Source: a virus. From it: 38,993 bases of DNA. A program made the position numbers and the translations under genes. Location of the stretch: IMG/VR virus record IMGVR_UViG_3300010293_000014, positions 1 to 38,993 of that record; one strand, 5' to 3'. This document shows positions 2,581 to 33,363 of the stretch, one piece after another. Below the pieces are notes generated by a model. The model saw nothing but the letters and a program-made list of their open reading frames with translations, searched no databases and was not told the origin of the DNA. Positions within the stretch are counted from its first letter, which is position 1. Each line of letters begins with the position of its first letter.

Positions 2581-2817
2581 ATGTCATATATTCAAGATGC
2601 AATCCGCGAGTGGGCTTGGGTAGTTGGTGCTGAGAGGCCCGACGCACAATGGATCCTGTCAGACTACGACACATAGGAACCCAATCCTCACTATAATGGT
2701 CCCGATCAGTGGCATCCCGAGGACTACGGTTTTGACGATGACGAGAACGATACTCCGATTAGTAAGCCTGCCTTGCAGCCGGCCTCGTAGGACTACTCCG
2801 ACGATATCCCGTTTTAA
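2581..2817 (+). pseudogene. Small gene interrupted by two in-frame ambers, SSB-like acidic tail
   Basis: From the ATG at 2581 the frame encodes 31 residues (starting MSYIQDAIREWAW) and meets TAG at 2674-2676. The same frame then continues with a protein-like acidic stretch (NPHYNGPDQWHPEDYGFDD) to a second TAG at 2788-2790, and then with DYSDDIPF and a TAA at 2815-2817. The total is 79 codons with no change of frame. The last residues match the C-terminal tip of bacterial SSB (D-D-D-I-P-F), which recruits SSB-interacting repair and replication proteins. The gene may be decayed by two nonsense changes, or may be expressed by amber readthrough. Without readthrough only a 31-aa peptide is made. 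Confidence 0.5.
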
Positions 2818-2826
2818 GGAGACAAC

Positions 2827-3516
2827 ATGGCATACCAAAAGCGAGAAGTGGTGACTTATCCAACTGCTGTTATGGTTGCTGCTGCACTTAAAGCAGTAGA
2901 AGGCAGTAATGGAGAAATCGTTAAGCAAGACCAGTCAGCTTACAACAGTCTGCAACCCGGTGGCGAAGAGGTGTATGTTCCTGCTGTTAAAAGCACCAAA
3001 ACCATCATGACTGAATTGCTCGCAAAGCCAGAAGAACTTGATGTTTCTGCTGGACAAGAAGCAATCGACTTTGTCCACGGCGCTGCTACTATGGCGGTGT
3101 TTTGTGGCAAAACGATGTCAGATTTTACCAAAAAGATGGTAGAAAAGATTCAAAACGAGACGGTTACGAGCCTCGATACTGGCTTTATGGTTTACTTTGT
3201 GCCAGTGTATAGCAACTTCAAGAAATCGTCGGAACGCAGAGAAAAAACGGTCGAATACATCAACTCGGAATACTTTGGTAAAGTAGGAGAAAAGGTTACG
3301 TTCGACCTTACAGTCATCAATTCGAAATGGCTTGACCAGTTTGGTATGTTTGTAGTGTTCGGACATACGGCAGACGGTAACTTAGTCAACTTTTTTACTG
3401 CCAAACCAGCCTGCACAGAATCCGGTAAATATACAGGCAAGGTGAAGAAACACGAACAGTCACAGTGGCACGAAAATACCAAGGTAACAGTTCTTAATTA
3501 TATAAAGGCAATGTAA
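2827..3516 (+). CDS. Conserved phage protein with OB-like C-terminal module, 229 aa
   Basis: The start is the ATG at 2827 with SD AAGGAG 5 nt upstream. The last third (about residues 150-229, from GKVGEKVTFDLTV through TADGNLVNFFT to KVTVLNYIKAM) is beta-rich. It aligns by eye with the C-terminal module of the 1856 product: both have G-x-V-G followed by a strand ending in L-T, then D/A-G-N-V/L, then a basic strand and a final T-V/I-L/V-x-x. I infer a nucleic-acid-binding OB-like fold in both. The N-terminal two thirds have no motif I recognise. This is the last + strand gene before a convergent operon; its TAA (3514-3516) abuts the stop of the 3517 gene. Confidence 0.65.
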   Translation: MAYQKREVVTYPTAVMVAAALKAVEGSNGEIVKQDQSAYNSLQPGGEEVYVPAVKSTKTIMTELLAKPEELDVSAGQEAIDFVHGAATMAVFCGKTMSDFTKKMVEKIQNETVTSLDTGFMVYFVPVYSNFKKSSERREKTVEYINSEYFGKVGEKVTFDLTVINSKWLDQFGMFVVFGHTADGNLVNFFTAKPACTESGKYTGKVKKHEQSQWHENTKVTVLNYIKAM

Positions 3517-3867
3517 CTAAATCAAATGTTTTGCTAACACCATTGTAGATAACCATATCCACAATGTATTAAATCCTACTAATGTAGGCAATAGCTTTTT
3601 GTTAGATGCCCATATCAGAGTAGCAGAAGTAAACAAAGCAAAAAAATACAATTGCCATATATGTATTCCGAAAATTAGTCCCGGAATAATAATTGCTGCT
3701 TTTGTTATCCAACTTGCTGCTTCTACAATATTATAGTCAGTCCAATATGCTCGTGTAAACCACAGTGCATAGCAATTTTTTATGTTTTTCCATCCGGTGT
3801 GAGTATAAACACTTCCTACTACTAGTATAGTCAAACATAAAGACAACAAAACTTGTTCATTCGACAT
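3517..3867 (-). CDS. Small integral membrane protein, 116 aa
   Basis: Three to four hydrophobic segments are visible (about residues 6-22, 50-70, 72-88 and 92-112), so this is an integral inner-membrane protein. No family is recognised. It is the last gene of a four-gene - strand operon and its start overlaps the end of the acyltransferase gene by 11 nt, which implies co-translation. Its stop abuts the convergent + strand gene. A transport or membrane-anchoring role for the operon's product is possible but cannot be read from the sequence. Confidence 0.7.
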   Translation of the reverse strand: MSNEQVLLSLCLTILVVGSVYTHTGWKNIKNCYALWFTRAYWTDYNIVEAASWITKAAIIIPGLIFGIHIWQLYFFALFTSATLIWASNKKLLPTLVGFNTLWIWLSTMVLAKHLI

Positions 3868-4453
3868 TTATTCTTCTTCTAGCAGGGCTTCCTAAGTAAA
3901 ACCCAGGTTCAGTAATATCCTTTGTAACTATTGCACCTGCTCCGATCATAACATCATCACAGATTGTAATTTTATCAATAATTGTCGATCTAGCACTAAG
4001 CACACATCTATCACCAATTGTGCTGCTACCTAACACAAACGCACCTGTATTCATAATGCACGATTTACCCAATTTGGCACTGTGATTAACTGTGCAATAC
4101 GGTCCGATCATACAGTCTTCTTCTACTACTGCATTGTTCGGTATCATCGAGTAAGGCCCAACGAATGTACCAGGTTTAATGGTTGCAGTAGACGATACCA
4201 CGCATGTTGGGTGAATGAACGTAAACCGTTTGATTTTTTTAGTGTCAATTTTGTTTATTATTAATTTACGCAGTTCTAAATTTCCAAACACTGCAACCAT
4301 CACACTTGAATTTTCTGTATCGAATGTATCTAACAAGAAATCGTCAGGAGAAACAATTAAACAAGATTTTCCAGTTTCTTGTATTTGTTCAACTATGTCG
4401 TGTATCGATACTGCGTGTTTAAAACCTATTAGTAAAACATTATTTTTCATCAT
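3857..4453 (-). CDS. PglD-like hexapeptide-repeat acyltransferase
   Basis: The N-terminal region (about 1-90) looks like the small Rossmann-like domain of PglD/NeuD-type sugar acetyltransferases (KNNVLLIGFKHAV... VMVAVFGN). The C-terminal region has consecutive hexapeptide turns typical of a left-handed beta helix (CVVSSTATIKPGTFVGP, NNAVVEEDCMIGPYC, TIGDRCVLS) and ends GAGAIVTKDITEPGFYLGSPA, a classic acetyltransferase ending with the N-acetyl-donor loop. The likely reaction is acetyl or acyl transfer to an amino-sugar or similar amine. I chose the start at 4453 because the longer frame from 4513 lies inside the halogenase gene; the ATG-ATG here overlaps the halogenase stop by 14 nt. Confidence 0.8.
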   Translation of the reverse strand: MMKNNVLLIGFKHAVSIHDIVEQIQETGKSCLIVSPDDFLLDTFDTENSSVMVAVFGNLELRKLIINKIDTKKIKRFTFIHPTCVVSSTATIKPGTFVGPYSMIPNNAVVEEDCMIGPYCTVNHSAKLGKSCIMNTGAFVLGSSTIGDRCVLSARSTIIDKITICDDVMIGAGAIVTKDITEPGFYLGSPARRRINVE

Positions 4454-5684
4454 AATACTCAAATTGATTAAAGTATAATCCCAAACTGGCCCAAATTGGT
4501 GAAGGGTATGCATTGGTTTTTACACTTGACTTAGATCTATAATGTTCCCATAACGATTTTTTAACGTCGAATTTTTTATAATATCGCCAAAATTCGGTGT
4601 CGTCTCTTTCCGACAACATATAATGGTGTAGAGTAAATGTTGACAAATCATGCAAAAGTTGTCTGATTGCTCTGTTATAAAAGGTTTGCTCCTTATTTTC
4701 GTTTAGGCATAACGCTAATACTTTAATGCATTGTCCAGTTAATAACAATCCGGGAGCTTCGAGTGGATCGATGAATCCATGAGCCAATCCTAAACTTACA
4801 ACATTACCGGACCACGGATTGGCTAGATAACCCACATTCCATTTTAGATTCATTGGTTTGGCATTGTTAAATTTTTTATGTTTGCTAATCATTGTTTCAA
4901 ATTCTGCTAATGCATCTGAATCAGAAATAAATTTGTCAGAATACACGTATCCTGTTCCCATTCTGTTTTGCAGAGGGACAATAAATTGCCACCCATAATC
5001 TCTCGCAATTGTTTGGGTGTATGTGCAAACACCCTTTACACCAGGGTACGGAACTTGGTCAGAATATTCAATAGGGCAAACCCATGTAGAATTAACAAGA
5101 TGATGTTCGGGTACTAGCCTGGTAGTATCAGTAGCAAATTTAGAATTTAATCCCGCGCAGTTGATATATAAGTCATACCCTTCTGGTAAAGTACCTGGCA
5201 AAGTGTCAATTATGTTTTTTACATTTCTACATGCATTTTTAGCCACCAACCCGATCTTAGTAGCATCGACGTGGTAGGCGTAAGAGTTTTTTACGTTGAA
5301 TCGGTAAAATTCATCATTGACTTGATCACGAGTTTTCTTACCTTGGCGAAACTCGTCAATAAAGCAGTCGATTCTTTCATTGGCATCAAACCAGAAAGAC
5401 ATTAAAAACGGGTCGCCATTCTTATAGTCCCATCCTTGTTTCATATTTCCAATTTTGTATGTAGCTTGTGTAGCAGGCATCCAATCTTCTTCATTTACTC
5501 CTAGCTCTTTCAAAAAGTCAACCGTTACAGGAGTAGTTGCTTCACCGATGGGAAGAGGTGGTATTCGATCACTCTCGAGAAGTGTTATATCAAGCCCAGG
5601 AACATTTTTTTCTAAGTAAGCAGCAGTTAACCATCCAGTAATGCCACCTCCGACAATCAGTACTTTTTTATTTTTGGACATCAT
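4440..5684 (-). CDS. Flavin-dependent tryptophan-halogenase-like protein
   Basis: The 414-residue protein has the FAD-binding GxGxxG (VGGGITGW, residues 11-18), the halogenase signature PIGEATTP (45-52), the Lys in TYKIG (K77, equivalent to the catalytic Lys of PrnA) and FIDPLEAPG (E309, equivalent to the catalytic Glu). The usual W-x-W-x-I-P motif is changed to GWQFIVPL (W232-x-F-x-V-P), followed by GTGYVYS. Flavin-dependent halogenases chlorinate, brominate or iodinate aromatic substrates using FADH2 and hypohalous acid. A cyanophage member (VirX1) is a known relative in this superfamily. It is shorter than PrnA (about 540 aa). It lies between an acyltransferase gene and a DUF6356-like gene with overlaps on both sides, so they probably act together. 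Confidence 0.88.
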   Translation of the reverse strand: MMSKNKKVLIVGGGITGWLTAAYLEKNVPGLDITLLESDRIPPLPIGEATTPVTVDFLKELGVNEEDWMPATQATYKIGNMKQGWDYKNGDPFLMSFWFDANERIDCFIDEFRQGKKTRDQVNDEFYRFNVKNSYAYHVDATKIGLVAKNACRNVKNIIDTLPGTLPEGYDLYINCAGLNSKFATDTTRLVPEHHLVNSTWVCPIEYSDQVPYPGVKGVCTYTQTIARDYGWQFIVPLQNRMGTGYVYSDKFISDSDALAEFETMISKHKKFNNAKPMNLKWNVGYLANPWSGNVVSLGLAHGFIDPLEAPGLLLTGQCIKVLALCLNENKEQTFYNRAIRQLLHDLSTFTLHHYMLSERDDTEFWRYYKKFDVKKSLWEHYRSKSSVKTNAYPSPIWASLGLYFNQFEYYDEK

Positions 5685-5946
5685 TTGCCTTATCGTAATC
5701 AGCTAAAATCTTTTGTACATGCTGTATTCTTTTAATCTCTTTGTACATTTTGTAGACTCCTATAGGACCATCACCTTTGTACATCCACGGAAATATACCG
5801 TGTAAGTAACTTTTTATAGCCATTTTTATTAGTCGACCACTTTGCATAAAGCTGTGATCTAAGTGCTGTTTATAAGTCCATTCTGTTTCTCTTAGGTGAT
5901 CTTTGCTTAGTTGTAGTTTTTCTTTAATTGACATTTTGATTGACAT
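5668..5946 (-). CDS. DUF6356-like small protein, 92 aa
   Basis: The middle of the protein (LDHSFMQSGRLIKMAIKSYLHGIFPWMYKG) matches my memory of the DUF6356 pattern, in which an H-containing helix is followed by H-x-x-F/L-P-W-x-F/Y and a C-terminal amphipathic helix. The function of the family is not known. It is the first gene of the - strand halogenase operon and its end overlaps the halogenase start by 17 nt. Two in-frame ATGs (5946 and 5934) are possible starts. A probable late-type promoter (AGTAAATA) lies about 20 nt upstream on the - strand. Confidence 0.6.
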   Translation of the reverse strand: MSIKMSIKEKLQLSKDHLRETEWTYKQHLDHSFMQSGRLIKMAIKSYLHGIFPWMYKGDGPIGVYKMYKEIKRIQHVQKILADYDKANDVQK

Positions 5947-5965
5947 ATTCTAATAAATATGTTAT

Positions 5966-5973
5966 TATTTACT
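5966..5973 (-). promoter_or_regulatory. Possible late-type promoter for the halogenase operon
   Basis: On the - strand the octamer AGTAAATA lies 20 nt before the ATG at 5946. It differs from the T4 late consensus TATAAATA at the first two positions. The short distance to the gene is the same as for better copies elsewhere in the window. Confidence 0.4.
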
Positions 5974-5974
5974 C

Positions 5975-5982
5975 TACAAATA
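5975..5982 (+). promoter_or_regulatory. Possible late-type promoter for the RNA ligase N-terminal gene
   Basis: TACAAATA differs from TATAAATA at one position and lies 28 nt before the ATG at 6010, with AAGGATAGGT as the leader RBS. It lies back to back with the - strand octamer at 5966, so 5947-6009 is a compact divergent promoter region. Confidence 0.4.
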
Positions 5983-6009
5983 AACAAGCATATTTTTTAA
6001 GGATAGGTA

Positions 6010-6324
6010 ATGAGTACATTTAGCGTACCTGTAGTAAAAATTAAAAGCATCACTCCTATTCCAGATGCAGACAGCATCGATGTCGCTGAGGTAATGGGAT
6101 ATCGTTGTGTAGTTAAGCGTGGCGAGTTTATGCCTGGCCAACTTGCTGCATACATTCCTGAAGATAGTATTGTTCCTATCTGGCTGCTTGAAAAAATGGG
6201 ACTGTGGGATACCAGTAAAAATAAAGGCAAATTAGCAGGGCCAGATGGTAACCGTGTAAAAGCGATTCGGTTAAGGGGGGTTATGTCTCAGGGATTGCTA
6301 TACCCTATACAGTCTGAAAATTAG
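6010..6324 (+). CDS. RNA ligase, N-terminal fragment of a split gene
   Basis: The 104 residues match the N-terminal OB-type domain of DRB0094/Rnl5-like RNA ligases. The pattern is V-x-K-I-x-x-I-x-P-I-x-x-A-D-x-I-x-x-A-x-V-x-G-Y-x-C-V-V-K-x-G-E-F, then A-Y-I-P-E-D-S-I-V-P, and finally VKAIRLRGVMSQGLLYP. In whole enzymes this is followed directly by the nucleotidyltransferase domain, which here is encoded separately at 7284-8090. The frame ends at TAG 6322-6324, 42 nt before a GIY-YIG homing endonuclease. I infer that the endonuclease insertion split one ligase gene into two polypeptides that may re-associate. Spliced-RNA joining through an intron is an alternative I cannot exclude. Confidence 0.8.
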   Translation: MSTFSVPVVKIKSITPIPDADSIDVAEVMGYRCVVKRGEFMPGQLAAYIPEDSIVPIWLLEKMGLWDTSKNKGKLAGPDGNRVKAIRLRGVMSQGLLYPIQSEN

Positions 6325-6341
6325 AACTTACATCATTCTGG

Positions 6342-6349
6342 TATAAATA
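6342..6349 (+). promoter_or_regulatory. T4-type late promoter for homing endonuclease
   Basis: A perfect TATAAATA octamer lies 18 nt before the ATG at 6367, with an AAGGTG Shine-Dalgarno in between. The endonuclease therefore carries its own late promoter. Confidence 0.7.
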
Positions 6350-6366
6350 CCATATAAGGTGATAAT

Positions 6367-7287
6367 ATGATATATGGTAAAGATTATTTTGGTTTTATAT
6401 ATAAATGGGTTAACCATGTTAACAAAAAATATTATATAGGATCCCATTATGGGCCACTTGATGATGGATACGTTGGGTCGGGTGTTTGGTTTCGGCGTGC
6501 ATACAACAAAAATCCAGAAAATTTTTCAAGGACTATTCTTAAATACTTAACGTCTGAAGATCCAGTAGAATTACTAACATTAGAACAACAATATTTAATA
6601 ACCGAATGCGAAGTCGGAAATAAAGACAAATGTTACAATATTTCTCGGCGAGCCGGTGGTGGCTGGCAATTGGCCGGAAAAGCAGATAGTGAAATTGCCG
6701 AAATTTATTCTAAGATAAGCAACACTTTAAAAAACAAAACCGAACAAGAAAGAATTATTATTACAGAGAAAATAAAAACCACATTAGCCGAAAATCCAGA
6801 GAGATGCAAAATAGCAATTGAAAAAATGAAAACTACCAAAAGACTGTGGGATGACCAGAAGAAAAAAACAATGGTAGAGAAAATGAAAAATACGTTACAT
6901 AACAACCCAGACATTAAAGAAAAGGCAAGACAAAAGTTCATTAATACAATTTCAATGAGAACAGATGAACAAAAACAAAAAATAAAAAATAACTGTTCTT
7001 CTAGTTGGACAGATGAAAGAAGGAAACAAATGTCTGTTAGGATAAAGCAACTTCGCGCACAGAGAACCCCTGAACAAATTGCTGCTGACCGGCAAAAAGC
7101 ATCATTGGCGCAACTAAACCGAGATCCGGAAAAAAGAAAAGAGGCATATCAAAAAAGTAGCGAAACATTTAAAAACAGATCAGTTGAAGAAAAAGAAAAA
7201 TCCAAGCAAAAAAGGTTAGAAAAAATAAACCCAAAGAAAGATCAAATAAACAAAAGGATAAGTGAGGCGAAAAGGAAAATTAAATGA
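6367..7287 (+). CDS. GIY-YIG homing endonuclease in split RNA ligase gene
   Basis: The N-terminus has the GIY-YIG nuclease core: GFIYKWVNHVNKKYYIGSHY at residues 9-28, then an Arg-containing helix and a catalytic Glu candidate in LTLEQQYLITECE. The rest is a very lysine-rich series of NUMOD-type DNA-binding helices (repeats of the type T-x-E-Q/E-R/K...K-I/M-K-x-T/R), similar to seg/mob-type free-standing endonucleases of T4-like phages. It probably cuts ligase alleles that lack the insertion and promotes its own spread. It sits exactly between the two ligase pieces, has its own late promoter, and its last four bases form ATGA with the start of the C-terminal ligase piece. Confidence 0.9.
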   Translation: MIYGKDYFGFIYKWVNHVNKKYYIGSHYGPLDDGYVGSGVWFRRAYNKNPENFSRTILKYLTSEDPVELLTLEQQYLITECEVGNKDKCYNISRRAGGGWQLAGKADSEIAEIYSKISNTLKNKTEQERIIITEKIKTTLAENPERCKIAIEKMKTTKRLWDDQKKKTMVEKMKNTLHNNPDIKEKARQKFINTISMRTDEQKQKIKNNCSSSWTDERRKQMSVRIKQLRAQRTPEQIAADRQKASLAQLNRDPEKRKEAYQKSSETFKNRSVEEKEKSKQKRLEKINPKKDQINKRISEAKRKIK

Positions 7288-8090
7288 AACATTATTTAGT
7301 AACAGATAAACAAAAAATCGAAGTATTCGAAGACCAAGATGTCTCAACAATATTAAACATTAACAAATGGTCGCCACCTGTTCCTGTCTTTATGGCTGGC
7401 GAGGTTTGCAATCAACGAGGCAATACCCTAAAGTACGATATCGAGAATATCCAACGTTACCCCGACGTTTTGCGAAACGGCGAAGAAGTTGTCTATACTG
7501 AAAAAATTCACGGAACATTCTGCGGCCTTGCTTACGCCTTTAACGTGTGCCATCAAGAACTGTATGGCACAAATGGATTTGCGTTTAGCAAAGGTCTTGG
7601 TGCTCAAGGTCTGGTATTTAAGAACAACGACAAGAATGCAAACAACGTATACCATCGTATGCTTATCAAGTATTACGAAGCTATTAAAGCACTAGCATTG
7701 ATGGAAAAGAGCCCAGTGTTTGTTCTTGGGGAAATCTATGGTAAAGGTATCCAAGACCTCACGTATGGAACACAAGTACCAGAATTCCGTGCATTTGACA
7801 TCTACGTTGGCCGTCCGGGGTTTGGACGATTTGTGGGATATGAGGAATTTGTATCTAAGTGCAAAGGTGTGTTCGAAACAGTTCCGTCTCTATATCGTGG
7901 TCCATACAGCAAAGAGTCTGAACTAAAATTTCGCAGCGGACAGGATGCAGTAAAAGGGGCAAACCTTCGAGAAGGCATTGTAATTAAGCCAGTAACAGAA
8001 AGGTCCGATCCTACACTAGGACGAATTATCCTAAAAAGTGTAAGTCCAGAGTACCTACTGCGAAAAGGGAATACAACCGAGTATCAGTAA
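7284..8090 (+). CDS. RNA ligase, C-terminal (nucleotidyltransferase) fragment
   Basis: The 268 residues contain the catalytic core of the ligase: motif I EKIHGT with the AMP-accepting Lys (K74), motif IV REGIVIKP and motif V RIILKSVSPEYL. A preceding segment, NKWSPPVPVFMAGEV, is typical of the DRB0094/Rnl5-like group that joins RNA ends. Because motifs I to V are complete, this piece may form the adenylate alone. The OB domain needed by relatives for nick sealing is in the separate gene at 6010. The first 15 or so residues (MKHYLVTDKQKIEVF) probably belong to the original linker, with the ATG supplied at the endonuclease junction. It ends inside a strong palindromic terminator. Confidence 0.85.
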   Translation: MKHYLVTDKQKIEVFEDQDVSTILNINKWSPPVPVFMAGEVCNQRGNTLKYDIENIQRYPDVLRNGEEVVYTEKIHGTFCGLAYAFNVCHQELYGTNGFAFSKGLGAQGLVFKNNDKNANNVYHRMLIKYYEAIKALALMEKSPVFVLGEIYGKGIQDLTYGTQVPEFRAFDIYVGRPGFGRFVGYEEFVSKCKGVFETVPSLYRGPYSKESELKFRSGQDAVKGANLREGIVIKPVTERSDPTLGRIILKSVSPEYLLRKGNTTEYQ

Positions 8091-10299: not shown

Positions 10300-11256
10300 A
10301 TGACACAACCTATCAACGTTCGCTGGGTTATCGCTCACGAACCTATTGGCCTTTTCTTAAAGGTTGCAGAACGATTTAACGAAGAGATTAACGCAAACCC
10401 AAAAACAAAAGGTATGTTTAATTTTGAAGTTATGGGCTTAACCGAATATGCAGCAAAATATAACAACTACCAACGTGTTACTAAGAATGACTTACTCGAC
10501 CTCATGAATGATGGGTCAATCGAGATGTGCCATATCTACACCACATGGTTAGGTGATTACAATCAAGACATGCAAGTCTTAGATCTCCCATTTTTATTCA
10601 AAGACCATGCACACGTCGACCGTGTTGTCGATGGTCCGTTAGGAAAGCAGATTTTAGAAGGTTTGGCTGAGAAATCTAAGTTTACAGGGTTAGCATTTAC
10701 ATACAGCGGCGGATATCGTATTGTCCCAGCTAAAGATGCCATCAACTCAGTTGACGGTTTCAAAGGAATGAAAGTTCGCACATCACGCAGCCCAGTCGCA
10801 ATCGAAACATTTAAGGCACTCGGTGCAATTCCAGTTTCCAATGTTGAGTTAGAAGACATGAACAGTGCAGCCGACGAAGGCACAATTGACGCAGGCGAAA
10901 GCACATATATTCGTGTGTTCCCTCTCAAACAGCATAAGTCCTTTGGTAAAATGATCGACACAAAGCATAGCGTGTTTATGACATCTATCGTTGTTGGCAC
11001 TGATTTCTTCAAAGGACTTGATCCAGAAGTTCAGCAAATTCTTTCTACCGCAGCATATAATGCAGCTAAGATTGAACGGGTTGAATCTGTTGCTGACGTA
11101 GCAGTAACTCGTGAAGAATGTGCAAAACGTAACATTCCAATTATCGAGTTTAGCGCAGAAGAACAAGCTAAGTTCGAGGCATTAACTGCACCAGTATACG
11201 ATACATTTAAGGATGCATTTACCCCTGGCTTAATTGACGCAGTCCGTAAAGCGTAA
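10300..11256 (+). CDS. TRAP transporter substrate-binding protein-like (DctP family)
   Basis: The 318-residue protein follows the DctP (TRAP-type solute-binding) fold: an N-terminal alpha/beta lobe with V-x-D-L-P-F-L-F (LDLPFLFKDH), the central GFKGMKVRTSRSPVAIETFKAL region with the conserved substrate-binding Arg, and the alternation of short strands and helices to the end. Known members bind dicarboxylates, sialic acid, ectoine or 2-oxo acids in the periplasm. There is no signal peptide here: the protein begins MTQPINVRWV, so it should stay in the cytoplasm or go into virions. Such genes are known from other aquatic T4-like phages. It lies alone between a late-type promoter and a strong terminator. 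Confidence 0.8.
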   Translation: MTQPINVRWVIAHEPIGLFLKVAERFNEEINANPKTKGMFNFEVMGLTEYAAKYNNYQRVTKNDLLDLMNDGSIEMCHIYTTWLGDYNQDMQVLDLPFLFKDHAHVDRVVDGPLGKQILEGLAEKSKFTGLAFTYSGGYRIVPAKDAINSVDGFKGMKVRTSRSPVAIETFKALGAIPVSNVELEDMNSAADEGTIDAGESTYIRVFPLKQHKSFGKMIDTKHSVFMTSIVVGTDFFKGLDPEVQQILSTAAYNAAKIERVESVADVAVTREECAKRNIPIIEFSAEEQAKFEALTAPVYDTFKDAFTPGLIDAVRKA

Positions 11257-29993: not shown

Positions 29994-31733
29994 ATAGGTT
30001 ACGTTGATGCACTGTTAGACAAAGACAACGATAAGATTTTTGTTGTTGAAAGAACACCGGAAGGCGAGCGTAAGTTCGTAGAGTACCCCGCTAATTATAC
30101 CTTTTACTACGACGACAAAAAAGGGAAGCATCGCACTATTTACGATACCCCAGTATCTAAATTCTCTACCAACAGTTACAAAGAATTTGCTAAAGAAATT
30201 CGTTTCTACAGTAGAGATAAGATATGGGAAAGCGATATTAAACCAGTATTCAGATGCTTAGAAGAGTATTACAAAGGTAAAAAGTCACCTAAACTACAAA
30301 CAGCATTCTTCGACATTGAGACCGATTTCCACCCAGACCGAGGTTTTGCTTCGGCAGAGGATCCGTTTAATTCGATTACTGCTATCTCAGTGTTTTTAGA
30401 TTGGATGCCTGAAGGTAGCCAACTTGTTACATTAGTAATGGCACCAAAAGGATTACACCCTGAGACTGCACAGAAAATTTGCTCTGGATTCGAGAACACA
30501 GTTTTGTGTGAAACAGAAGTGCAGATGCTAGAAATGTTCCTTGACTTAATTGACGACGCAGATGTGTTAAGCGGGTGGAACAGTGAAGGTTTCGACATCC
30601 CGTATACTGTAATGCGTATTACTACCGTGATGTCTAAGGACGATACTCGTCGCTTCTGTTTGTGGAATCAATACCCAAAGAAGCGTCTATTTGAACGGTA
30701 CGGTGCTGAACAGATGACCTTCGATTTAGTTGGTCGCGTACATCTCGACTACATGCAACTATACCGCAAGTACACATATGAAGAGCGTCATAGCTACTCG
30801 TTAGACGCTATTTCTGAATACGAGCTTGGAGAAAAGAAAGTTGCGTATGAAGGAACGCTTGACCAGTTATATAACAACGACTTCGAAAAGTTTGTGCTGT
30901 ATAATCGACAAGACACCGTCCTTCTTGCGAAACTAGATGCAAAGCTAAAATTTTTAGACTTAGCTAACGAACTTGCCCATGATAACGGCGTTTTGCTTCC
31001 TACAACTATGGGTGCAGTGGCGGTCACTGAGCAAGCAATTATTTTAGAATCCCACCGTCGTGGTATGATCGTTCCGTCCAGAAAACACAAAGGTGATGGA
31101 TCCGACGTTGATATCTTAGAGGATGACGACTTAGCTGCTGAACGAGCAATGTGGGGTATTGAAGATGACGATACCAACTTGTTCAACGACGAACAAGCAG
31201 CAGGTGCATATGTAGCAGTACCAAAAGCAGGTATGCATAAATGGATCGGTGCAATTGACATTAACTCTCTATACCCGTCTACTATTCGTGCATTAAATAT
31301 GGGTCCGGAAACAATCATTGGCCAACTGCGTCCAATTATGACAGACAGTTATATCAATGAGAAGATGAAGGACAAACGTGTAGGCAAGCGTATGATGAAG
31401 GGGTACTCCTTTGCAGAAGCATGGGACGGACTTTTTGGTACACTTGAATACACCGCAGTAATGGAACGGAAAACGGATGTCGAAGTTACAATTGACTGGA
31501 ATAACAGCAACGAGTCAACTGTTCTTCGTGCTAGTGAAGTATACGAACTAGTGTTTAATAGTGGAAAAAACTGGTGCATTAGTGGTAACGGCACTATCTT
31601 TACTTACGACTTAGAAGGCATTGTTCCAGGATTATTAAAGCGTTGGTATGCTGAACGTAAAAAGAAACAACTCAGAAAGAAAAAATTTAACGATTTGTCA
31701 AACGGCATCGAGATACCAAACAGATTACTATAA
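29994..31733 (+). CDS. 43: DNA polymerase family B (gp43-like), part 1 of 3: exonuclease and motif A
   Basis: The open frame begins after a TAA at 29970 and has no ATG, GTG or TTG before conserved sequence starts (GYVDALLDKDN). A GGGAG Shine-Dalgarno (29982-29986) lies 7 nt before ATA at 29994, so I infer an AUA start; the first ATG, at 30390, would remove the Exo I motif. Motifs: Exo I FFDIETDF, Exo II GWNSEGFDIPY, Exo III YNRQD, and polymerase motif A DINSLYPS. The frame ends after a Lys-rich segment (ERKKKQLRKKKFNDL) in the fingers region, where an EDxHD homing endonuclease follows. Together with 32638 and 34319 it makes one polymerase. ATC at 29991 is an alternative start. Confidence 0.88.
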   Translation: MGYVDALLDKDNDKIFVVERTPEGERKFVEYPANYTFYYDDKKGKHRTIYDTPVSKFSTNSYKEFAKEIRFYSRDKIWESDIKPVFRCLEEYYKGKKSPKLQTAFFDIETDFHPDRGFASAEDPFNSITAISVFLDWMPEGSQLVTLVMAPKGLHPETAQKICSGFENTVLCETEVQMLEMFLDLIDDADVLSGWNSEGFDIPYTVMRITTVMSKDDTRRFCLWNQYPKKRLFERYGAEQMTFDLVGRVHLDYMQLYRKYTYEERHSYSLDAISEYELGEKKVAYEGTLDQLYNNDFEKFVLYNRQDTVLLAKLDAKLKFLDLANELAHDNGVLLPTTMGAVAVTEQAIILESHRRGMIVPSRKHKGDGSDVDILEDDDLAAERAMWGIEDDDTNLFNDEQAAGAYVAVPKAGMHKWIGAIDINSLYPSTIRALNMGPETIIGQLRPIMTDSYINEKMKDKRVGKRMMKGYSFAEAWDGLFGTLEYTAVMERKTDVEVTIDWNNSNESTVLRASEVYELVFNSGKNWCISGNGTIFTYDLEGIVPGLLKRWYAERKKKQLRKKKFNDLSNGIEIPNRLL

Positions 31734-31755
31734 TACCTTAATTTTGTTAAGTAGG

Positions 31756-31763
31756 TATAAATA
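31756..31763 (+). promoter_or_regulatory. T4-type late promoter for homing endonuclease
   Basis: A perfect TATAAATA lies 18 nt before the ATG at 31781, with AAAAGGAAG as SD between. Confidence 0.7.
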
Positions 31764-31780
31764 ACATAAAAGGAAGTAAC

Positions 31781-32674
31781 ATGGTAACATGTTTAATATG
31801 TCAAAAAGAGTTTAGAAACCTAACAAGTCACATAAATTTTAAACACAAAGTTACAAAAGAGATGTATACCAAAACGTATCCGGGTGCACAGATTGTCTCA
31901 ACTGAGTTATCTGCACAGTTTTCCGAGAGAGCTAAATCTATGCACAAGAGTCTTAAAGAATCAGATTCTGAAAACTATCGCGCTATCAGGAATAAAACCT
32001 GCCAACTGATGCGAGACCGAAAAGGCAATTCGTTTGTACATTCAGACGAAACAAAGAAAAAGATGTCTGCCTCACACACCGGAAAGACTCGCGAGCCACA
32101 TACTGAGCAAACTAAACAACTTTTAAGTAAACAAAAGATCGGAAAGCCTGTAAATCTGTCAGACAAAAGCAAACAAGCTAAGTCCGAAAAACAAAAAGCC
32201 AATTGGGAAACACGAAGAGAAGACAGTAAACAATTCTCTAAGTATATAGAACTGTTATCTACTAGAAGACGTGATTATATAAAAGAGCACGGTATCGTCC
32301 TCCCAAAGAGAGGAAAGAAAACAAATATAGAGAAACAGTTTATTGAATTTCTGGATGCAAATAGTATACAATACATTTATCAGTATCCACTAGATGGTAA
32401 ATATTACGATTTTTATCTGCAAACACTAAATTTGCTAGTAGAAGTCGACGGAGAATACTGGCATCGATTCCCTGCTGCAATTAGAAACGATTTAGAAAAG
32501 CATAGTATCGCAAAAGACCATAAACTAAAACTTTTAAGAATTACTCACACTAATTGGGTTCCGGAGTTAGTATTCGAAACCGATTATAATTTAATACAAA
32601 AACACAATCATCAAATTTTAAATTCAAGGACAAAAGAATGTCAGAACTACGAGATCTCGATTTCGATCGTCTAA
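31781..32674 (+). CDS. EDxHD (Vsr-like) homing endonuclease at the first polymerase break
   Basis: The N-terminal C-x-x-C ... H (CLICQKEFRNLTSHINFKH) followed by KEMYTKTYPGA is a zinc-finger-like element of the MucR/Ros type. The middle has NUMOD3 repeats (HSDETKKKMSASHTGK, TEQTKQLLSKQKIGK). The C-terminal nuclease (from about 180) has IEKQFIEFLD, YYDFYL and LLVEVDGEYWHRF, the E...D...YWH pattern of the Vsr-related EDxHD endonucleases known from fractured phage genes. It lies between polymerase pieces 1 and 2 and its end overlaps the start of piece 2 by 37 nt. Confidence 0.88.
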   Translation: MVTCLICQKEFRNLTSHINFKHKVTKEMYTKTYPGAQIVSTELSAQFSERAKSMHKSLKESDSENYRAIRNKTCQLMRDRKGNSFVHSDETKKKMSASHTGKTREPHTEQTKQLLSKQKIGKPVNLSDKSKQAKSEKQKANWETRREDSKQFSKYIELLSTRRRDYIKEHGIVLPKRGKKTNIEKQFIEFLDANSIQYIYQYPLDGKYYDFYLQTLNLLVEVDGEYWHRFPAAIRNDLEKHSIAKDHKLKLLRITHTNWVPELVFETDYNLIQKHNHQILNSRTKECQNYEISISIV

Positions 32675-33363
32675 CACAAATATTCGAGACTGGATCAAAA
32701 GAAGAACTTGATCAATTTTGCAAAGAAAATTCACTGCGAATTAAAGACGGTAAAGTTATACCAAATAATTTCACCGAAGTAAAAAATGCTATAGAGTATT
32801 GGGATAAAAAACAACTTGTAACCAAGATTAATTTGAATAGCCTTTATGGTGCACTGTTGAACGCAGGTTGCCGTTTCTTTGACCAGCGTATCGGGCAGTC
32901 TACTACATTAACTGGGCGTTTAATTGCACGCCATATGGACGCTTACATTAATCAAGCAGTAACAGGTATTTACGACCATACCGGTGAAGCTATTGTGTAC
33001 GGTGACAGTGTAACCGGCGACACCCGTATTAAAACAAACGACGGCGAAGTGACCATAGAAGAATTATTTAATCAGTGTCAACATACCACTCTATCGCCGT
33101 CAGGAAAAGAGTACAGAGGAGGCATTGATACAAAAGTAATTGGGTTCGACGGTAACGAACTAAAACCAGTTATGAGTGAAGTTTCGTATGTTATGAGGCA
33201 CAAAACTAAGAAAAAGTTATATAAAATAACTTTCTCTAATGATAAAACCGTAACAGTTACTGAAGACCATAGCCTTATTGCGTTAAGGAACGGAACATTA
33301 GTAGAAGTTACTCCGTTGCAAGTTCTAGAAACCGATGTGTTTATCTCGCTGCTGGATAAATAA
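32638..33363 (+). CDS. 43: DNA polymerase part 2 of 3 (motif B) fused to split-intein N-half
   Basis: Residues 1-123 continue the polymerase: IEYWDKKQLVTKINLNSLYG contains motif B (K-x-x-x-N-S-L-Y-G), then RIGQSTTLTGR, and the extein ends AIVYGD, the first half of catalytic motif C. An intein N-half follows (118 aa, see separate entry). The start is the ATG at 32638 within the upstream endonuclease gene; the first 45 residues (MSELRDLDFDRLTQIF...) bridge the original fingers loop. By itself it lacks the second catalytic Asp, so it depends on trans-splicing with the 34319 product and on association with part 1. Confidence 0.9.
   Translation: MSELRDLDFDRLTQIFETGSKEELDQFCKENSLRIKDGKVIPNNFTEVKNAIEYWDKKQLVTKINLNSLYGALLNAGCRFFDQRIGQSTTLTGRLIARHMDAYINQAVTGIYDHTGEAIVYGDSVTGDTRIKTNDGEVTIEELFNQCQHTTLSPSGKEYRGGIDTKVIGFDGNELKPVMSEVSYVMRHKTKKKLYKITFSNDKTVTVTEDHSLIALRNGTLVEVTPLQVLETDVFISLLDK
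33007..33360 (+). other. Split intein, N-terminal half (118 aa)
   Basis: It begins at Ser1 directly after YGD: SVTGDTRIKTNDGEVTIEEL is intein block A. Block B is VTVTEDHSLIAL, with the conserved T-x-x-H (T-E-D-H). It ends at TAA 33361-33363 without endonuclease blocks C to E. The matching C-half is encoded 956 nt downstream. Confidence 0.9.
33355..33362 (+). promoter_or_regulatory. Late-type promoter for homing endonuclease
   Basis: GATAAATA, one mismatch from TATAAATA, overlaps the last codons of the intein N-half gene and lies 25 nt before the ATG at 33387; GGAG sits in the leader. Confidence 0.55.

Follow-up and report, generated by a model that had tools for sequence, protein, structure and literature searches.

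A candidate halogenation and acylation cassette with recurrently linked partner genes in a viral genome

In a 38,993-base IMG/VR virus record, referred to here in full as the window, four intact minus-strand ORFs spanning 3517-5946 run head to tail, each overlapping the next, and encode a DUF6356 protein, a flavin-dependent halogenase-family protein, a PglD/NeuD-like acyltransferase and a small membrane protein. We tentatively favour, with a little under even confidence, the reading that these genes form an accessory tailoring cassette of the phage, by which an aromatic substrate is halogenated and acylated. Direct support for the cassette comes from its gene content, the fold and conserved catalytic residues of the halogenase, and recurrent linkage; the enzyme is a probable halogenase of aromatic molecules, adding chlorine, bromine or iodine. 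The halogenase type and the idea of a phage-made halogenated metabolite are already known, and the four-gene set is new. The order of three of the four genes is repeated in one other locus, while genes for DUF6356 and the membrane protein accompany halogenases in many other aquatic viruses, pointing to a virus-encoded tailoring module not described before.

All four minus-strand genes proposed in the earlier note are present and intact, and its overlap lengths of 17, 14 and 11 nt were obtained again by computation. The first gene encodes the DUF6356 protein (5668..5946; 92 aa) and shares 17 nt (5668-5684) with the halogenase gene (4440..5684; 414 aa). The acyltransferase gene (3857..4453; 198 aa) lies in a frame that is open to 4513; translated from its longest ATG, this ORF (3857-4513) would yield 218 aa and overlap the halogenase gene by 74 nt, and the 14-nt value is that given by the ATG at 4453. 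The last gene (3517..3867; 116 aa), which encodes a four-TM-type (four-helix) membrane protein, overlaps the acyltransferase gene by 11 nt (3857-3867). The operon had been drawn from 3517 to 5973, but its first ORF begins at 5946. A divergent intergenic space of 63 nt (5947..6009) separates the cassette from an RNA ligase gene, and on the other side a plus-strand gene of unknown function converges on it, ending one base away at 3516; tail genes are not adjacent. The intergenic space, which a plus-strand sigma-70-like site overlaps, holds no convincing minus-strand promoter, and promoter matches there did not exceed the shuffled expectation. The promoter and terminator scans were uninformative, and the Rfam search found no element. 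The RNA ligase gene (6010-8090; phrog_968) is itself split by a homing endonuclease ORF (6367-7287), with no Rfam group I intron match.

The halogenase-family protein matched PF04820 Trp_halogenase at 5e-66 (223.8 bits against a curated cutoff of 21) and PHROG 2928 at 8e-82. Its AF2 model (pLDDT 91.5) adopts the Trp-halogenase fold and matches PrnA, RebH, Thal and VirX1 (Foldseek E 4e-32, TMq up to 0.84). The GxGxxG dinucleotide motif is found as G12-x-G14-x-x-G17, and the catalytic Lys and Glu reported earlier are indeed in place, with K77 aligning to RebH K79 and E309 to RebH E357. Two other motifs deviate: G-W-Q-F-I-V-P (WQFIVP at W232-P237) stands where W-x-W-x-I-P would be expected, and the tunnel motif F-x-x-P-x-x-S-x-G, cited for flavin-dependent halogenases (PMC8407142), reads FIDPLEAPG, with Ser replaced by Ala.

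Together with a Thr-to-Pro change in the same F-x-x-P-x-x-S-x-G stretch and a proline (P45) in the G-x-G-E loop, the W-x-F for W-x-W and Ser-to-Ala deviations would suit a halogenase relative that does not halogenate, being either a flavin monooxygenase or inactive. We consider this improbable in light of the wider clade and of characterised enzymes: K77 and E309 are invariant across the 48 viral sequences aligned, PLEA forms occur widely in the viral relatives, and functional FDHs, Bmp5 among them, can lack WxWxIP (PMC8407142). Single-sequence scans with either the halogenase or the DUF6356 protein recovered no viral relatives and profile scans were needed, which for the halogenase yielded close viral relatives of ~390-410 aa sharing 44-50% identity over their full length. 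Within this short clade, W-Q-F-x-[IV]-x is common in the 48-sequence alignment. The motif that the earlier note called altered, W-x-F-x-V-P, does read so, but it is typical of the short viral clade rather than an anomaly of this gene, and the idea that W-x-F represents a lesion was rejected. The window protein does depart from near-invariant positions elsewhere, with P45 for Gly (46/47), A49 for Ser and N175 for Asp, and its P311 is unique in the alignment set. This last position is presumably where the backbone amide of a Thr in PrnA binds halide (chloride). Because proline cannot supply a backbone amide at this presumed halide site, halogenation, which is likely for the short clade, is less certain for the window copy.

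Further differences bear on the substrate. The protein is ~50 residues shorter than RebH after residue 81, and the alignment ends at RebH residue 459, five residues before the end of the window halogenase, which has neither the C-terminal helical lid nor the Trp-contact region of free-tryptophan halogenases. In Thal, the lid (residues 445-466) encloses tryptophan; VirX1 has no such lid, a difference that has been associated with an enlarged pocket and a broader substrate range (PMC7948982). Because the window halogenase is missing the C-terminal lid, a bulky or attached aromatic is a likelier substrate than free tryptophan, and the alignment suggests an open site. Relative to PrnA, RebH and Thal (PF04820), the fold and catalytic pair are thus shared, but the free-Trp lid, ~70 C-terminal residues and ~50 residues of the substrate domain are missing and the motifs vary. 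The characterised viral halogenase VirX1 (cyanophage Syn10, PDB 6QGM; PMC8407142) resembles the window protein in its viral origin, variant-A FDH fold, catalytic Lys and Glu and lack of a helical lid; it differs in sharing only ~29% identity, in being ~100 aa longer and in keeping W-x-W-x-V-P, and no DUF6356, acyltransferase or membrane partner is annotated in the Syn10 neighbourhood. Phage halogenases are not new: 78 phage records match, mostly cyanophages and including Syn10, the source of VirX1, and prnA has appeared in earlier lists of cyanophage genes with no purpose assigned to it (PMC2984593; PMC3037559). Two halogenase matches from human-fecal 'phage' (H10 and H42) have the look of bacterial DNA, with TonB-receptor-like genes, and were discarded as not phage.

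One recurrent partner is the DUF6356 gene, whose product matched PF19883 at 1.6e-9 (38.2 bits, above the curated cutoff of 24.4). A halogenase was found within 2 kb of DUF6356 in 18 of 22 viral loci by HMM and in 19 of 22 by tblastn, the locus added by the latter (L266) having a partial halogenase match, and some bias remains in these counts because the DUF6356 profile was built with two sequences chosen with halogenase linkage. After clustering at 85% identity, the linkage was seen in 6/8 clusters. In two control sets taken from the collection that supplied these loci, a halogenase lay within 2 kb in 1/80 acyltransferase loci and in 3/80 membrane-protein loci. Viewed from the halogenase, DUF6356 is nearby in 16 of 80 short-clade loci and the membrane gene is adjacent in 14 of 80, counts that exceed the number of independent events, as some of these loci belong to near-identical phages. 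A small oxygenase-like gene with no Pfam match usually separates DUF6356 from the halogenase; the two genes overlap directly in the window, in L277, in L274/L276 and, in reversed order, in L215.

The order of the first three genes is repeated on one viral contig, L277: DUF6356 (2538-2762), a halogenase (2734-3990) and an acyltransferase (3983-4564) are followed by another, longer halogenase gene (4561-6060), and the successive overlaps are 29, 8 and 4 nt. The acyltransferase of L277 shares 34% identity with that of the window and keeps the active-site His. The exact four-gene order of the window, which the earlier note had proposed to look for in other phages, was found nowhere else in the collections searched; what stands of the proposed unit is the linkage of halogenases to DUF6356, to the membrane protein and, once, to the acyltransferase. 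This uniqueness, the usual placement of the membrane gene elsewhere and the halogenase linkage of the acyltransferase in just 1 of 80 viral loci would be expected if there were no pathway at all and separately acquired cargo genes shared a transcript by chance. We judge such an accident distinctly improbable, given the arrangement in L277 and the repeated overlapping of halogenase genes with DUF6356 or membrane genes, in opposite orders, in divergent phages.

DUF6356 is also present in 29/299 sampled bacterial genomes, where its neighbours are mainly Lrp/AsnC-like regulators and amidotransferase-like genes. No halogenase occurred in the 1.5-kb flanks of the 25 bacterial DUF6356 loci, and no bacterial source for the unit was found. 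On viral contigs L255-L259, putative TctA/TctC tricarboxylate-transporter-like genes, named from sequence, lie just upstream of DUF6356.

The membrane protein matched no Pfam, PHROG or NCBIfam family; its AF2 model (pLDDT 92) is all helical, and a fold search against the PDB returned nothing significant. It belongs to an abundant, unnamed virus family with at least 553 confirmed viral matches and a single copy among 84,980 prokaryote genomes. That copy (L093:6001-6357), in the genome of a Bathymodiolus symbiont (Thiodubiliella), has a transposase-like gene on one side and a flavin monooxygenase gene on the other. Beyond the short clade, the membrane gene lies downstream of longer, more divergent halogenases in seven loci, mostly directly and otherwise one gene away. 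Two of the 14 short-clade loci (L200 and L218) contain halogenase-membrane protein-halogenase operons with 1-4-nt overlaps. Most members of the family have other neighbours, DNA polymerase genes among them, which weakened the case for a membrane protein dedicated to halogenases. Because the membrane protein is mostly found elsewhere and bacterial DUF6356 genes have no flanking halogenase, neither gene is exclusive to halogenase chemistry: both accompany halogenases in viruses but do not mark halogenation wherever they occur.

The acyltransferase matched Hexapep at 3e-20 and has the hexapeptide beta-helix and active-site His, the catalytic-type His in NHSAKLG aligning with that in EHECVIG of PglD. 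It has the left-handed beta-helix and active-site His in common with PglD (UDP-N-acetylbacillosamine N-acetyltransferase) and NeuD, but its score against TIGR03570 NeuD/PglB (7e-37, 127 bits) falls below the cutoff of 160.8 that defines the subfamily, and no bacillosamine pathway genes were found nearby. The N-terminal IGFKHAV replaces what we take to be the glycine-rich sugar-nucleotide loop of PglD. No homologue of this acyltransferase was found in the 80 short-clade halogenase loci, and among 80 viral acyltransferase loci L277 is the one in which a homologue is linked to a halogenase. In another viral contig (L002:2487-4528), which also carries recombinase- and single-strand-binding-like genes, an acyl-AMP-ligase-like gene overlaps a NeuD-like acyltransferase gene that has no active-site His and is not halogenase-linked.

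From this set of genes we infer halogenation of a substrate of some size at the membrane, acylation of the same molecule and a benefit to the phage, along the following lines. A host flavin reductase would supply FADH2, no such gene having been recognised beside the halogenase, and the halogenase would use FADH2, O2 and halide to form HOX. By way of Lys77, HOX would then reach an aromatic ring that Glu309 activates. The substrate would be a bulky or attached aromatic, such as a peptide, a protein side chain or a lipid- or sugar-linked group. DUF6356 and the membrane protein, both translationally coupled, would probably place the halogenase, or hand over its substrate, at the membrane, and the hexapeptide acyltransferase may then transfer an acyl group to this product at an amine or hydroxyl. 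The likely benefit during infection would be an altered host-surface or virion component, or a protective metabolite. A more far-reaching version, which we regard as quite unlikely, would make DUF6356 and the 116-aa membrane protein parts of a widespread and hitherto undescribed viral halogenation machine at the membrane that acts on a macromolecule or peptide, with DUF6356 as one candidate substrate and with acyltransferases and oxygenases as plug-in components.

The neighbourhoods of related halogenases suit either small-molecule or macromolecule tailoring. An SbmA/BacA peptide-transporter gene (PF05992) lies upstream of the halogenase in marine phages, ~1.3 kb away in 30/80 short-clade loci and also in L013-L019, and AMP-binding and GNAT-like genes, non-homologous to the window acyltransferase, adjoin the halogenase in 12-13/80. 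As adenylation and acyl-transfer genes, the latter also speak for the tailoring-cassette reading. Transporter, AMP-binding and GNAT-like genes would equally fit a cassette that makes a diffusible halogenated, acylated metabolite, for example an antibiotic, signal or protectant. A precedent is the halogenated-metabolite cluster proposed for the jumbo cyanophage S-SSM6a (Iyer et al., 2021; PMC7824862). We find a diffusible product unlikely for the window, where SbmA is absent from all 38,993 bases, the free-Trp lid is missing and neither the cassette nor its neighbours yielded a scaffold-making gene (NRPS, PKS, aminotransferase or carbamoyltransferase); no substrate gene or precursor was evident either.

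Modification of tail-fibre or host surface proteins or glycans, by halogenases of the clade acting with neighbouring Asp/Asn- or prolyl-hydroxylase-like oxygenases, is likewise unlikely in our estimate. It would agree with the open site suggested above, with the Asp_Arg_Hydrox (Asp/Asn-hydroxylase-like) and 2OG-FeII_Oxy_3 oxygenases among the neighbours of relatives, and with a PglD-like enzyme, which is typical of glycan pathways. Tail-fibre or structural genes also adjoin halogenases in cyanophages and in L015, L023 and L045; in L045 a collagen-like Gly-Pro repeat protein is encoded nearby as well. The window cassette, however, is not beside tail genes, and T4-like phages have plastic accessory regions among their structural genes, so location alone is a weak guide.

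As to novelty, the earlier statement that such a pathway had not been described as a unit holds for this particular gene set, but viral halogenases and a phage halogenated-metabolite cluster were already known (PMC8407142; PMC7824862). The S-SSM6a cluster resembles the cassette in pairing a phage halogenase with companion modifying enzymes in a proposed biosynthetic role; it differs in having ten genes, with carbamoyltransferases, a methylase and 2OG oxygenases, and the part of the source that describes it does not mention DUF6356, a hexapeptide acyltransferase or a membrane protein of the window type. Neither the four cassette genes nor the flanking genes on either side matched a carbamoyltransferase or HemK-like methylase. 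The interest of the cassette lies in its partner genes rather than in its halogenase. Marine-phage halogenases are recurrent but unexplained metabolic genes, and recurrently coupled partners (DUF6356, the nearly virus-specific membrane protein and a matched acyltransferase) offer handles for finding their natural substrates. The short, lid-less clade also supplies enzymes for which bulky substrates may be acceptable.

The virus itself had been called T4-like, which seems only loosely right: its family-B DNA polymerase matches phrog_262, yet PA5oct-type Pseudomonas jumbo phages are among the nearest named relatives of both this polymerase (50% identity) and a ClpA-like protease (41% identity). 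The polymerase gene (window 30390-33363) is split: it comprises at least two ORFs, and an HNH endonuclease-like ORF separates them. Elsewhere, at 10300-11256, the window carries a phage-borne gene for a DctP (TRAP-type) solute-binding protein (PF03480, 2e-44).
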